Positions 721 to 23,244 of a stretch of 23,244 nt of DNA are shown here, piece by piece; positions within the stretch are counted from its first letter, which is position 1; each line of letters begins with the position of its first letter. Location of the stretch: the IMG/VR virus record IMGVR_UViG_3300010155_000100, positions 1 through 23,244 of that record. The stretch is one strand, 5' to 3'. Under the pieces are notes generated by a model. That model ran no database searches and was not told the origin of the DNA. It saw only the letters and a list, made by a program, of their open reading frames with translations. The DNA is from a virus. A program made the translations under genes and the position numbers.

Positions 721-3700
721 ATGAGCGACAATAAAGAAGTACTTCATGGGCAAGACGCAATAGCTCAAGTCGAACAAAACTTAGGAAGACCGTTAACCTA
801 TGCGGAGAAACGCGTAGTCGAGGAAGAGGGGTACGTTGCTACCCCTTATACCGACACTAAAGGTGTTACAACCTTTGGGGTAGGTCAAACGGGAAGGTGG
901 ATCGAGGAAGGTTTTGAGCCTGCTTTTCAGCATCATGTTGACAGAGCTAGAGCTCGTATACCTAAGTTCGATAAGTTCCCTGAGGAACTCCAAGCTGAGC
1001 TTATTCAAGCTGAGTACAGGGGTGACTTGGGGCATTCCCCTACTTTTGTACGTCTTATGAATGAAGGTAATTACCAAGAAGCCTCTCAGGAATTCTTGGA
1101 TAACAATGATTACCGTAAGTCACAGGAAGAGATGACAGGTGTCCACGGGAGAATGAAGAGAGTATCTGATGCAGTTGCATCCTTTGGTGCTCCTGCGGTA
1201 GACGAAAAGGGGAGAGTAGTACCTGAGGCTACAACAGCCCCTGTAACCGACTTTAGAATCGGTACCTCAGGATATTCATTCATTGACGGTGATACTGTTA
1301 AGGATGATACTACAGGTGAACGAATAAGACTCCGTGAGATAGACCTTGCTGAGCTTACTAAAGTCACAAGAGAAGGTGGGTATTCAGTTGGTGAAGGTGC
1401 AGGTCAAGTTACTAAAGAGTACGTGGCACACCTAGCTAACAAGTATGGATACACACAAGTAAAAGCTGGAAAAGAAAAAGATGACTATGGGCGTAGGATT
1501 GGTGATCTAGTTGATGAAGAGGGCAACTCCTTTACCGACTTCTTGATCAGCCAAGGTATCGCAAGACCTACCTTCATTGGTAGATCAACTGAGATGATGA
1601 GCGATGAGAGTTATGATCGATTCGTCTGGGGTGAGAGCCTAAGAAGCCTTAGGGGTCCCGACACAAAGAGAACAGATATAGATGTTGCTCGAGAGTTAAT
1701 ACAGAGAGCAGCCTTAGATCCTTCTAATGGTGTCCCTCTATTCAAACAGAAAGCTTTTAACGAAGAGGAGTTCGCATCTTTCCCTGAGTTATTCTCAGGT
1801 GTAGTATTACGTAATAAGAATGCAACCTTTGACAACAGATCTAAGACACCTTTCTCAGATTCTTTTGGTGCTGGTGTAACATCAGCCGTTAACTCTTTCA
1901 GAATGGCTGGTGCAGCTATGGCAGACACTGTGGGTGCTGACGATGCTCAGGCTTGGTTTGAGGGCGGTGCTGCTTACCATAGATCTAAGTTGGCTGATGC
2001 ACCTAAGGTCCGATTGAGCTATGAGGATGTTGATTGGTCTTCATTCGGTCAAGTCACAGAGTTCCTTGGGTCTAACATTGCAATGTCTCTCCCTTACATG
2101 GGAGTCACTATGGCATCAGTAGTGGCCGCTCCGTTCACTTTCGGAACTAGCTTAACTGTCCCTGTGGCAATGTACTCAGGTATGATCCTTGACGAAATGC
2201 CAGGGAAGATGGAAGATAAGAGCTACGGTGTTGCCCTTGCAGGTGGCGCAATAGCTGCATCATTAGATCGTTTAGGTCTTAAAGCGGCTATGGGTTCTTT
2301 CACCCCTAAGCATTTCTTAACTGGAGAAGCTAAGGATAAGGCTATCGATGCTATCCAACAAGCAGGACTAGCGGTAAGTAGGGAAGAAGCTGAGCAAGTT
2401 CTTTCAAAAGCTACTAAGCGAGAGCTACTAGGCTATCTCGGTGATGCAAGTAATTTCATGGAGAATCAAATAACCAAGAGCTACATACTAAAGCAGTTTG
2501 CTAAAAGGATGTCAGTCTCAGGTGGCATGGAAGGTGGTACGGAGATGCTTCAAGAGCTAACCCAATACACATCTGCTGTCATAGGATCTGAGAAGACTTG
2601 GGATTATGATGAGCTTGAAGAGCGTATGGCCAATGCCGCTATTGCTGGTGGTATGATTGGTAGTTCTTTCTCTGTACCCTCTACAGCTTTCCAAGCAGGT
2701 CAATGGAAAGATGCTGGGGTTGCTAAGTCAGATTATGATAAGCGATTTGATGATGCCACAGCTGGCTTTAGGGCAGATGAAAGGGCAAAGACTGCAACAG
2801 AAGGTAGTAAAGGATATGTCCCCGACATTCAAACTAAACTGTCTGGGTTCTGGGATAGGATCAAAAGTAAGAAAGTAGACAGGCAAGAGAAGCTCAAGAA
2901 AGGAACTCCTGTTCCAGACGAGACTACACTTGACGACTTCGCATCCGAATCTGATACGAGGAGAGATGCAAGACCTACCTCTCAGAAGCTAAAGGATATC
3001 CTAAAGGACCCAGTATCTGCATTAAGATCATCTCTTGACACACGTATAACTATTGACATGCTTAATAGCAGCCCTACCCTACGACTCATATATGATGGGT
3101 TTGCGGGTAAGAAGAATAAAACACATGGTGGTATTGATTTCCAGAACGATAAGCTACTAAACTTTACCCATTTTGAGAAGTTCCTTCGACCAATCGAAGA
3201 GATCCTGAATGATTTTAAGGTTAAGGGTAGAACTTATGGTAAGAGACGTACCGCAATCTCGACCCTTGTGCAGAAATTCTATGAGAAAGAGATACGACCT
3301 ATAACCAAAAGGGATAGTAACAAGAAGTGGAAGAGTGTCGATGATATCTTCAGTCAAATAGATTGGAATAACGTATCAGATCCTGCCTTTGTTAAGAACA
3401 AGGATGCAATAGAGACTCTAGTTCGAGAACTCTACACTGTCGATGATGCAATGTATCGGAATATAACAGCAGTCCAAGAGGTAGCTGGGGAAAGGCAGAT
3501 AGGTGAACTGCAAGATCACATCTTCAGAAGCAAAGGTTTCTTAAAGAAGCATATTGGTAAGAAGAAAGAGGAGTTCACTAACCTACTCGCTGAGACTTAT
3601 GGACTTAGTAGAGATGTTGCAGCATCTGTCACTGATTCTATCATTGATAACCCTGAAGTTAACACCTTAGATGAGGCGTTTGACTTGACTAAAGGGGGCA

Positions 3701-10099: not shown

Positions 10100-12196
10100 T
10101 TACGAGAAGAAATAATCTGAGCTTACTACCTCTTCGACTTTAAGGTCTCCAAGCTCAGGTTGTGTTACAGAATATCCTTTGAAGTTCTCAATCAGCATTG
10201 ATTCAATTATATCAAAGAAGTTATTTACATTATACAACATGGCAAACTGCCACTTAGTGTGCTCAACAAGTTTATCAATGTCACAAGCATGTGTAGAGAA
10301 TGAATCATGTACAGCCCCAAAGTCCCCAGGGAATGCCTCAATGACCTTAGCCATATGAGCAGCATCCATTGAGTGTACGAAGTTAGGTGAACATCCAGAT
10401 GCAAAGGATCTCCTGCAGGGTATTAGGTTACCCTCTTTAGTTATCACAGGTATCTTCACACTATGACCTATCCTACCTATAGACCTTATGGTACTACGGA
10501 AAGTCATATTCTTTTGCTTCCATACTTCATACAGCACAGGGAATCCTGAGGGTGTAGTCCACTGCAGACAAGTCTCACCACTGTCGATGAGGAAGTTAGT
10601 TACTTTCTGCAGGAACTTCATGGTCTTCAGGGGGCCCACACAAGTATCGTTGATTGCTAGTATTAGGTTACGGGCTAGTAGGTCACAGTCATCTCTTGAG
10701 ATCTTGTACTTCCTAGTGTAGCCTTCTACCTTACAGTCATGATACATGTTCTCTGCTATCTTACGTTGCCCTGCAGAGTACGCCCTTGTCATTGCCCCAC
10801 GTTTAGCTATCCCTTTCCTTATGCACTTCATAGGCATACTACGTTCAGCAAACCATTCAGGCATCCTACCTATTAAACGTTTCGCAACCTGTACATAAAA
10901 GTCCTTTTGTATATCTTGAGGAACAAGTGACACAAGTTCTCCAGCTTGTTTATCTTTAGACATCGCAGCCAAGTGCTGCCATCCATTGTTACTCCCGTCA
11001 ACAGGGATAGGAAGTCTGGAGTAGTAGTCCCCTTCAGCCTCGGAGTATCCCTTCAGGTCCAGACAGCAAGCCAGTAGAGTCACTGGTTTCTCTGCCTCCA
11101 TTCGGAACCTTAGGTTCTTCCCATCCTCTAAAAGACTGTCCATGTTTTCTATAGTCCACCTTGCCCTGTCTTCTAAAGTCATTTTGTCTACGGATAGAGT
11201 GTCTAACCCTTCCTCTTCTAAATGACTTTTGTAGTCTTTGGTTATCCATGTTAGTTTCTCCAGTTCCTTCAGGGTATACGATTGATTATAAGAACATGCA
11301 GTATGAATGCACAACCAATAGAACCCCCTCTCGTCCACAACCTTACCATCAGAGAACTCAAAGAGTCCCTTGGCTATGTCTGAACCTTGGAAGTTCAGGA
11401 AGGGTTCAGTGTAGTAAACCCTACCACGATAGTCACACTCAACTGCTTGGAAGAAACTCCTAGTGCCTATAGCTCTAGCCTTAGTTAAGGTGAACTTCAT
11501 CTCAATCCTTTTCGACCTACCCTTATCTGATTTATCTTCCATGTCTACGAACTTAGATACGTTATCCCTAAGTGCTTTAACAAGGGTAGTGTTTAAACGC
11601 CACTTAACCCTCTGTAGCTTGTCTAAAGCTTTAACAAAGGGCTCATCTAAGAGTTGGCTAAAGTCCCTCTCAGAGGTCATACGTTTGATATATGGCCTCT
11701 TGGTTATAGGGTTCCTTAGTCCAGTTATAGGCGGGAACATTCTGAAATTTGTACCTGATAGGGTAGCAGATTCATATGATGGAGGGATCTCTCCCAGATC
11801 CTCCCACTTCTCTGTTAGGAATACAACATACGGGGCACGATACCCCTCGTACTCTCTCTCGATTTCTATGTAACCCAGCTGTAGGAAAGCTTCAATGAAT
11901 AAATCACCCACAGAAAATAGTTCTGTATAGGTGCTACTAGTTATTCCTATCCTGGATATCACAGCTAATCCGATTGAGGAAGAGGTGTTGGTTAACTTGA
12001 ATGGTTTACCGTTAGAGCTACGTGACCTTAAGAATACACTTTGAGCAGTAAGCACTGCAGTCACAACCAACTCTTCGTAGTCGATACCGTAATCTACATG
12101 CCTGTTAAGCAGTCCGATGCCCGAGTGATTCCTCCCCCGAGCACCCTCTCTGTTACTCCTAATGTACTCTGCTACTTCGTGAATAGCATTAGTCAT
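10100..12196 (-). CDS. T7-like single-subunit DNA-dependent RNA polymerase
   Basis: A 698-residue protein with every core motif of phage single-subunit RNA polymerases: DYRGR (D255-R259) followed by LNFQGSDIAKGL; motif A PVDGSNNGWQH (catalytic D400); motif B K465-3aa-M469-3aa-Y473 (AKRGAMTRAYS); motif C VHDSF (catalytic D631). The C-terminus ends YFFS, reminiscent of the aromatic 'foot' (FAFA) of T7 RNAP. It is about 185 residues shorter than T7 RNAP (883 aa). R259 versus T7 R425 shows that most of the loss is N-terminal, the promoter- and RNA-binding domain. AGGAG lies 5 nt before ATG 12196. The gene lies 13 nt after the primase-helicase and near the end of the operon, unlike T7 gene 1, which leads the early region. 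It presumably transcribes middle or late phage genes. Confidence 0.95.
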   Translation of the reverse strand: MTNAIHEVAEYIRSNREGARGRNHSGIGLLNRHVDYGIDYEELVVTAVLTAQSVFLRSRSSNGKPFKLTNTSSSIGLAVISRIGITSSTYTELFSVGDLFIEAFLQLGYIEIEREYEGYRAPYVVFLTEKWEDLGEIPPSYESATLSGTNFRMFPPITGLRNPITKRPYIKRMTSERDFSQLLDEPFVKALDKLQRVKWRLNTTLVKALRDNVSKFVDMEDKSDKGRSKRIEMKFTLTKARAIGTRSFFQAVECDYRGRVYYTEPFLNFQGSDIAKGLFEFSDGKVVDERGFYWLCIHTACSYNQSYTLKELEKLTWITKDYKSHLEEEGLDTLSVDKMTLEDRARWTIENMDSLLEDGKNLRFRMEAEKPVTLLACCLDLKGYSEAEGDYYSRLPIPVDGSNNGWQHLAAMSKDKQAGELVSLVPQDIQKDFYVQVAKRLIGRMPEWFAERSMPMKCIRKGIAKRGAMTRAYSAGQRKIAENMYHDCKVEGYTRKYKISRDDCDLLARNLILAINDTCVGPLKTMKFLQKVTNFLIDSGETCLQWTTPSGFPVLYEVWKQKNMTFRSTIRSIGRIGHSVKIPVITKEGNLIPCRRSFASGCSPNFVHSMDAAHMAKVIEAFPGDFGAVHDSFSTHACDIDKLVEHTKWQFAMLYNVNNFFDIIESMLIENFKGYSVTQPELGDLKVEEVVSSDYFFS

Positions 12197-22410: not shown

Positions 22411-22441
22411 GCAATAAAAAACAGGGGCAATTAAGCCCCTG
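22411..22441 (-). terminator. Rho-independent terminator after the possible small terminase gene
   Basis: The perfect 7-bp stem CAGGGGC (22422-22428)/GCCCCTG (22435-22441) with a 6-nt loop is followed on the - strand by six T and TATTGC. It begins 3 nt after the stop of the gene at 22444-22878. Confidence 0.85.
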
Positions 22442-22443
22442 GA

Positions 22444-22878
22444 TTAATGTCCTGATAGTCTGTCTAGTTCTTTCTGTAATTCATCGTCAGTAAGATCCGT
22501 GTAGTCAAAGTTTGTATTGACATTTTCAGAACGTTGTAGCTTAGGTTGTTCATACTCAGCAACAATAGAGGCGAGTCGTGCAGCCTCAACCATATCGTCA
22601 CTCGATATAGCCTTGATCATAGCTAGCTTCATAACGGTTAATCCCTTAGGGATAGAATCCATCAGGCTATCTGATAAGTTGTTAACTAAACTTAGAACAT
22701 CCTTCATCTGTTCCTTCATCCTTTCATTCTCTAGCCTAGCTTCAGTTGCCTTAGCAGTCATCATAGCCATATGCTCTTTATCATGACGAGGTTTGAGGTT
22801 GGCTAGTGAATTAGGATGTATCTTTTTCTTTCCTTCTTTAATATCAGTTTGAGTGTATATCTTCTGGGCTTCTTGCAT
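22444..22878 (-). CDS. Possible terminase small subunit
   Basis: A 144-residue protein. The N-terminal KKKIHPNSLANLKPRH motif and the C-terminal DYTDLTDDELQKELDRLSG are both typical of small terminase subunits in tailed phages, flanking a long central helical region (coiled-coil-like, residues about 40-110) that would support ring oligomers. Small terminase recognises phage DNA and loads the packaging motor. ATG 22878 has an excellent GGAGGTGAT site 5 nt upstream; the frame open to 22989 would run through a terminator and promoter-like element. It is flanked by terminators on both sides, so it may be a single-gene unit. It lies on the replication strand and no large terminase is visible here. 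A coiled-coil protein of other function is the alternative. Confidence 0.55.
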   Translation of the reverse strand: MQEAQKIYTQTDIKEGKKKIHPNSLANLKPRHDKEHMAMMTAKATEARLENERMKEQMKDVLSLVNNLSDSLMDSIPKGLTVMKLAMIKAISSDDMVEAARLASIVAEYEQPKLQRSENVNTNFDYTDLTDDELQKELDRLSGH

Positions 22879-22888
22879 TATCACCTCC

Positions 22889-22929
22889 GTTCTAGGTAGT
22901 TCCCTATAAGGTACCTTAATGCCTAGAAC
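22889..22929 (-). promoter_or_regulatory. T7-promoter-like site inside an inverted repeat
   Basis: On the - strand CATTAAGGTACCT then TATAGGGA (22921-22901) has the spacing of a T7-type promoter, and TATAGGGA equals T7 positions -4 to +4. Initiation would be at 22904, 26 nt before the ATG at 22878. A perfect 8-bp inverted repeat, GTTCTAGG (22889-22896) and CCTAGAAC (22922-22929), encloses it, and AAGGTACCTT (22908-22917) is itself a palindrome. It may be the promoter of the phage RNA polymerase, an operator, or an RNA hairpin next to the ribosome site. Confidence 0.45.
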
Positions 22930-22961
22930 AAACTGTAATGCCTCTGTATTCCCATCAGAGG

Positions 22962-23003
22962 GAAATAAAAGAAACCCTACCTGACCCACACGGGATCAGA
23001 TAG
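22962..23003 (-). terminator. Probable rho-independent terminator upstream of the possible terminase gene
   Basis: An 11-bp imperfect stem (22977-22987 with 22993-23003, two G-T pairs) and a 5-nt loop is followed on the - strand by the T-rich run TTTCTTTTATTTC (22974-22962). It lies 18 nt after the stop of the 22-aa peptide gene. Confidence 0.65.
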
Positions 23004-23021
23004 AGTCTCTTAGGATTGAAT

Positions 23022-23124: not shown

Positions 23125-23159
23125 AATTAGTCTACATACAGAGAAGTTGTAAACTAATT
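23125..23159 (-). other. Long stem-loop after the probable SSB gene
   Basis: An 11-bp stem (23125-23135 with 23149-23159, one G-T pair) encloses a 13-nt loop, starting 5 nt after the stop of the gene at the right edge. There is no T tract on its 3' side (- strand reads ACCCAAGAGGG), so it is more likely an mRNA processing or stability hairpin, or a leaky terminator, than a standard terminator. Confidence 0.5.
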
Positions 23160-23163
23160 GGTA

Positions 23164-23244
23164 TTAAAACTCTGAGTCATCAGCTTCAGCACCTTCAACA
23201 TCGAAGTCAACTGAACCAGTATACTCAATTAAGTTTGTGATTTG
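23164..23244 (-). CDS. Partial C-terminus, probably a single-stranded DNA-binding protein
   Basis: Only the last 26 residues are in the window, ending EYTGSVDFDVEGAEADDSEF. An acidic, disordered tail with a terminal Phe is the signature of ssDNA-binding proteins such as T7 gp2.5 and bacterial SSB, which use it to recruit polymerase and other replication proteins. The replication operon that follows makes this role plausible, but the DNA-binding domain lies beyond the right edge, so the call rests on the tail alone. Confidence 0.45.
   Translation of the reverse strand, partial: QITNLIEYTGSVDFDVEGAEADDSEF

Follow-up and report, generated by a model that had tools for sequence, protein, structure and literature searches.

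The window, by which we mean the whole stretch of DNA analysed here, is a 23,244-base fragment of a virus genome. The element under study occupies positions 22889 to 22929 on the minus strand, between a terminator-like hairpin (23011-22969) and the ribosome site GGAGG of a 144-aa gene. The features that bear on it are as follows.

10100 to 12196, minus strand: single-subunit phage-type RNA polymerase of 698 aa, the proposed reader of the promoter
22422 to 22441, minus strand: terminator-like hairpin directly 3' of the 144-aa gene; a downstream hairpin of the strict definition was found in 24 of 38 scanned sequences, the window included
22444 to 22878, minus strand: 144-aa gene with its ATG at 22878, probably coding for the small terminase subunit
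22884 to 22888, minus strand: Shine-Dalgarno sequence GGAGG, assigned from the sequence
22889 to 22896, minus strand: 3' arm of the inverted repeat, CCTAGAAC, in the leader and adjoining GGAGG; CCTAGA in 38 of 38 close loci
22899 to 22921, minus strand: candidate promoter core CATTAAGGTACCTTATAGGGAAC (-17 to +6), kept and recurrent in relatives
22904, minus strand: putative +1, a G, placed by T7 geometry
22922 to 22929, minus strand: 5' arm of the inverted repeat, GTTCTAGG, upstream of +1; TCTAGG in 38 of 38 close loci
22930 to 22941, minus strand: 5' flank GCATTACAGTTT; in read-through RNA it is predicted to base-pair with the start codon and part of the ribosome site
22969 to 23011, minus strand: terminator-like hairpin 5' of the promoter; an upstream hairpin of the strict definition was found in 25 of 38 scanned sequences, the window included

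A preliminary description of this site, made from the letters of the window, had reported a T7-like promoter enclosed in a perfect 8-bp inverted repeat, which might serve as a promoter of the phage polymerase or as a hairpin controlling the gene. Its letters and coordinates were correct, the repeat is indeed perfect, and its 3' arm is contained in the minus-strand stretch CTACCTAGAAC downstream of the core. The likeness to T7 stood for TATAGGGA and the geometry of +1, but is weak elsewhere, with 5 of the 13 positions from -17 to -5 equal to the T7 consensus. A nested palindrome, AAGGTACCTT, is present as described but looks incidental, because it is kept only in the nearest relatives of the window, and we rejected it as a functional element. 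Upstream of the element, at 23125-23159, the window also carries a 12-bp near-perfect inverted repeat (AATTAGTCTACA/TGTAAACTAATT, 92%).

Perfect 8-bp repeats with a spacer of 3-30 occur 6 times in the window and 1 to 23 times in ten Markov copies of it. The repeat by itself is thus at chance level and not remarkable, and for that reason it was rejected as evidence when considered in isolation. The word CTTATAGGGA, at one mismatch, has 3 occurrences in the window against 2.2 expected, and no second copy of the core was found in the 23,244 bases at up to 3 mismatches. Taken alone, the site in the window is therefore weak evidence, and it is the data from relatives that decide.

Relatives were gathered with the polymerase (the best 80 of 106 loci) and with the 144-aa gene (the best 80 of 156 loci). 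We defined as close the 38 loci (L082-L119) whose small gene is at least 55% identical; many are near-duplicates, and among them are 13 distinct forms of the region from arm to leader. The arms TCTAGG/CCTAGA stand before the gene in every one of the 38 loci and stay constant while neighbouring letters vary. The core ACCTTATAG(A/G) precedes the same gene in 37 of them. The exception, L119, has TAGCTTAAAGA for the core and a spacer of 28 between the arms instead of 25, the latter being the exact spacer in 12 of the 13 distinct forms. Covariation, proposed earlier as a check on the hairpin, gave nothing to count, as the six inner arm pairs never vary. The shorter arm pair CTAGG/CCTAG matched 6 of 24 records of wider relatives; judged by eye, the matches in G003, G011 and G039 are the element and those in G022, G023 and G043 are not, and this pair was set aside as a search word.

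In relatives, the opposite strand carries the core again 8.2-9.5 kb upstream of the gene, either singly or as two tandem copies spaced 26-32 bp apart, and here the inverted repeat is absent. This second, late site is present in all 13 loci that hold 10 kb of upstream sequence (14 of the 38 loci overall); it was not found in the 9.0 kb available upstream in L083, a near relative. Its expected place in the window lies beyond base 23244, past the end of the record. The suggestion that copies be sought before late genes was thus borne out in relatives, where they precede large-terminase and portal genes. The accompanying refutation test, the lack of a second copy in the genome, does not apply to the window, because the record is a fragment and relatives carry the second copy. 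In the relative G001, the genes that follow the late site match the large terminase (5.5e-29), portal (1.7e-72) and major head protein (2.2e-78) families.

A pattern search of 21 records gave 33 matches in 17 records, compared with 1 for the reversed control pattern; the 4 records without a match are the two nearest relatives of the window and two records of the virus represented by L117, whose promoter letters differ from the search pattern. A matrix was trained on these same sites and applied to 8 records, in which only gene and late loci scored 28 or more, with 17.8 as the best score elsewhere and at most 19.6 in Markov copies (two of the records are 52-54 kb long, one was cut at 20 kb, and the window and G011 hold the gene site only). 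Searching 2.9 million viral contigs for TAGTACCTTATAGAG(A/G)G returned 27 stretches, 25 of which are, by eye, a late or gene site of this group; L194 is ambiguous, and L214 is by eye a tandem array resembling the late site. The conservation of arms and core, and the recurrence of the core elsewhere in relatives, exceed chance.

Two minor observations concern related words. L214 has a TTTGTAGTACCTTATAGAG word repeated in tandem at least three times, from 3261-3277 onward on the minus strand. A weaker conserved word, AAAGAACCTTAAAGAA, lies directly 5' of the primase-helicase gene in G001 (27776, plus strand), G003 (2672, minus strand) and G004 (14406, minus strand); it has a matrix score of 8.6-17.8, lies close to the end of the preceding gene and may be coding.

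More distant relatives carry the core or other words. In a sister clade, whose polymerase is ~64% identical to that of the window, the core reads TTAAGTACCTTA(T/A)AG before the gene in 4 loci (3 distinct), and in G033 and G030 it occurs also as tandem pairs on the opposite strand. No pair of gene and late sites was seen in the 16 other records of this search, many of which are fragments. Matches to TTAAGCAGCTTATAGGA with 3 mismatches were dropped, since the one in G030 lies inside the polymerase gene by its coordinates and the same was assumed for the others. The sister clade retains TCTAGG upstream, and around the same promoter it has a 10-bp repeat, TAGGTTACTC/GAGTAACCTA, the 3' arm of which contains most of the Shine-Dalgarno sequence. 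A third clade, with a polymerase ~45% identical, has a different word, TTAAATGTC(T/C)CCT(A/T)AAAGA, before the gene and, in 4 of the 16 loci with a large terminase, immediately 5' of the latter: TTAAATGTCTCCTWAAAGA precedes the small gene, and in L147, L149, L158 and L159 the large terminase. In L136, L139, L158 and L159 the third-clade word lies nearby on the other strand too, in L158 and L159 as a close back-to-back pair at the large terminase. Roseobacter phage CRP-7 (MK613349), in two stretches covering its genome, has 4 matches at up to 3 mismatches to a promoter-like word, TATAGTCCCCTATTAAAAGGA, at 2025 and 7146 of L163 (plus strand) and at 1262 and 20212 of L187 (minus strand), with 0, 3, 0 and 1 mismatches in that order. 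The CRP-7 and third-clade words were spotted by eye and then searched, and their copy numbers are descriptive.

The 698-aa protein matches PF00940 (E 7.6e-56), phrog_414 and, in the PDB, the T7 RNA polymerase (E 2e-33). If it reads the core, promoter letters and polymerase should vary together. The letter at -11 is the same at the gene and late sites in all 14 loci that show both: G in L085, L086 and L094, and A in the remaining 11. In L111 the letter at -10 differs at an extra partial match within the late leader. Comparison of 5 polymerases of the G(-11) group with 6 of the A(-11) group gave 13 fixed differences, of which 2, at window residues 575 and 580, fall in the specificity loop. This joint variation is suggestive only, as the lineages are few and the comparison does not separate it from phylogeny.

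A clearer case is the virus of L116-L118, where the gene site has ACC at -11 to -9 in place of the GGT of the window and the AGT of the A group. Its polymerase could be identified from overlaps: the contig L025 overlaps L117 by 2,085 bases at 100% identity, and L186, a stretch of the contig that also holds L117, is 99.9% identical to L025 over 2,700 bases. The polymerase encoded there has six extra alignment columns in the specificity loop. A search with ACCACCTTATAGAGAG returned 7 stretches, three of which are the gene site of this virus, while L217 and L221 look unrelated. L219 and L220, which are 99.8% alike, carry ACCACCTTATAGAGAG at a late site that may belong to the same virus, these contigs having no overlap with it. 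Polymerases with extra residues in the specificity loop are encoded both in L025 (3008-5110) and in L026 (7796-9895), and in L026 no match to the core was seen in the core searches.

Our combined findings make a strong case that the phage's own T7-type RNA polymerase most likely uses this site as a promoter. The phage-polymerase promoter proposed at the outset is upheld by the copies before late genes in relatives, by the matching letters at -11 and by the variant that goes with an insertion in the specificity loop. With the T7-type promoters (T7, SP6 and K11) the site shares a length of ~20 bp, TATA at -4 to -1 and a start at G, as well as lineage-specific letters at about -11 to -9, a PF00940 polymerase in the phage and a place before late genes. 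A ~20-bp word with TATA at -4 to -1 and a purine start was found before late genes in relatives, and in one copy in the window. The group differs from these systems in its own upstream letters, (A/G)GTACCT, and in having only two promoter loci in the scanned relatives of 52-54 kb; compared with T7 itself, the 698-aa polymerase is distant, and 13 of the 23 promoter letters equal the T7 consensus. We conclude that the promoter has probably diverged together with the polymerase, its recognition by which we infer from these sequences.

The position of the inverted repeat relative to this promoter is the same in the window and in the 38 loci, with the 5' arm upstream of +1 and the 3' arm at the ribosome site. 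An RNA started at 22904 could not form the stem, because the 5' arm lies upstream of +1. In RNA reading through from upstream, the inner stem is predicted at a probability of at least 0.9 in 10 of the 13 distinct forms. For the window, the minimum-energy fold of 115 nt extends the stem outward, such that GCATTACAGTTT pairs with part of the Shine-Dalgarno sequence and with the start codon; a shorter piece of 66 nt folds differently, with the start codon paired there too. The energy needed to open the ribosome site was higher in the read-through RNA than in the RNA from +1 for 20 of 21 distinct sequences, and L119 had no sequestration in this test.

How far this sequestration exceeds that of comparable sequence was assessed by shuffling. 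When everything upstream of +1 was shuffled, 11 of 19 sequences were reached by at most 5 of 100 shuffles, compared with 3 of 51 control genes (Fisher p 8e-6, with relatedness not removed). The 19 distinct sequences comprise 16 of the first clade and 3 of the sister clade after near-duplicates were dropped, and L119 stayed outside this uniform test as its core does not fit the pattern. Collapsed by hand into families, the count was 9 of 13, with the best member deciding for each family and the three sister-clade sequences counted as three. The window is borderline (5 of 100), and all 3 distinct sister-clade sequences stood at 0 of 100. The other 8 of the 19 sequences had no sequestration above that of their shuffles, nor had any of the 17 third-clade sequences, and with the three clades pooled the difference from control genes was weak (Mann-Whitney p 0.019). 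When the 5' flank alone was shuffled and the arms kept, about half of the sequences stood out, and the window was reached by 24 of 300 shuffles. When flanks were exchanged among ten relatives, cognate combinations were favoured (permutation p 0.012). An altered 6-base arm did little by itself to free the ribosome site; because this effect is so small, the arm alone was rejected as the mask, and the flanks matter too. The second early proposal, a hairpin controlling the gene, accords with these predictions, in which the ribosome site is buried in read-through RNA but not in RNA from +1. We hold with moderate confidence that the hairpin would hide the ribosome site in read-through RNA. The best argument for a function of the RNA is the sister clade, where the stem is replaced and its geometry preserved.

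The two early alternatives, promoter and hairpin, are thus both supported and fit together. We consider it likely that the element is a late promoter set inside a hairpin that silences read-through RNA, a late-only switch like that of gene e of phage T4. In such a scheme, an early RNA that enters the gene from upstream would contain the whole stem, and its folding would hide the Shine-Dalgarno sequence and the start codon, keeping the gene off. The polymerase gene lies downstream on the same strand, and its product, when made, would start at G22904 within the loop; the resulting RNA, without the 5' half, could be translated. Since the same core, free of the stem, precedes the late structural module on the opposite strand, the 144-aa gene would be switched on along with the late genes despite its place on the early strand. 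The terminator upstream would already lower read-through, which counts against the need for a hairpin. Judged by eye, the families were too few to support a link between sequestration and the absence of a strict terminator.

According to two reports (PMC3014915, PMC2988022), the T4 genes e (lysozyme), soc and I-TevI have a late promoter so placed that a stem in long early RNAs masks the ribosome site, whereas transcripts from the late promoter are without the 5' half of that stem. The likeness lies in the 5' half upstream of +1 and the 3' half at the ribosome site. The present case differs in having a promoter of a single-subunit polymerase rather than a T4 late promoter, in serving a probable packaging gene rather than a lysis, capsid or homing gene, and in being known from sequence and predicted folds.

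The arms may instead be read as DNA. They could be the two sites of an operator at which a phage protein represses this one promoter or sets its timing, with any RNA hairpin as a by-product. Six bases per arm are kept in 38 of 38 loci, the spacer hardly varies, and the arms lie 31 bp apart from centre to centre, about three helical turns. They are absent from the late site, and changing them scarcely alters the predicted opening of the ribosome site. The six invariant inner pairs suggest recognition of their letters, and a protein that reads them finds its best argument in the unchanging TCTAGG/CCTAGA of the first clade. However, the sister clade keeps TCTAGG yet has the other repeat, with its 3' arm over the Shine-Dalgarno sequence, L119 has its longer spacer, and the flanks outside the arms pair with the ribosome site too. 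On balance we regard an operator as unlikely.

That the promoter acts alone and the repeat has no role would agree with the chance-level frequency of such repeats in the window and with a late-site core that lacks one. It is difficult to reconcile with arms kept in all 38 loci amid varying neighbours and with predicted sequestration above that of control genes in the first two clades, and we think it improbable. Small-terminase subunits of some phages bind sites near their own gene, and the origins of T7 use promoters. A pac-like binding site or a promoter-primed origin would suit a position at a probable small-terminase gene, but the core stands at the late site without the repeat, and nothing in the data examined points to genome ends at the site, leaving a packaging or replication site very improbable. 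A host sigma-70-type promoter or a chance TATAGGGA is scarcely credible and was rejected, for although TATAGGGA-like words are not rare, a simple scan gave no sigma-70-like match at the site, and the core is long, conserved and present in second copies.

The 144-aa protein matched no PHROG at 0.001 and no Pfam family above the cut-off, and among 31 homologues scanned 2 touch a TerS PHROG, at best with E 0.035. A fold search with a predicted model (pLDDT 73, pTM 0.32) gave no match at E 0.001 or better, the best being an unnamed viral protein of 154 residues (E 0.0055). A homologue in CRP-7, gp61, was the sole record found among 50,697 (tblastn E 0.006) and has a profile match of E 8e-14 within CRP-7, where it directly follows the large terminase. 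The earlier label of small terminase thus has the support of position, through a CRP-7 homologue that adjoins TerL, but not of family or fold, and in the lineage of the window the gene does not adjoin TerL. By analogy with its position in CRP-7, we consider it the probable small terminase subunit.

Strand layout separates the clades. The window, G001, G003 and the sister-clade records carry the small gene on the same strand as the polymerase and replication genes; where the large terminase is also seen, it is on the opposite strand. The third clade has the small gene opposite the polymerase, primase or DNA polymerase in all 35 loci of L120-L161 that show both, and on the strand of TerL, ~4-8 kb apart, in all 16 loci showing both. 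The predicted silencing hairpin is thus present where early transcription would cross the gene and absent where it would not. That the hairpin goes with the early-strand position is a matter of consistency and may reflect a single evolutionary change. A broader scenario, which we offer tentatively and rate a little short of an even chance, is that a packaging gene was displaced from the late strand, where CRP-7 and the third clade have it, to the early strand, and that its timing was solved by placing the promoter in a stem. The stems would then differ in the two sister clades and be missing on the late strand, and the promoter loci would change together with the specificity loop.

CRP-7 is the best-ranked named relative by polymerase, at 35% identity. 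Like this group, it has early and late genes on opposite strands, a homologue of the 144-aa gene and a repeated word, TATAGTCCCCTATTAAAAGGA. It differs in that its gene lies beside TerL on the late strand, and none of the 4 matches to that word stands directly before the gene. We found no published promoter for this group: the main text of the CRP-7 paper (PMC6918029) never uses the word "promoter", and none is named in the titles and opening abstract lines from a broader literature search. The site yields a promoter consensus that can be tested for a group of uncultured marine phages with a distant relation to CRP-7. In the relatives, polymerase loops and promoter letters vary naturally and can be compared as sets. 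The layout suggests a second origin, in phages with a T7-type polymerase, of a control device known from T4.
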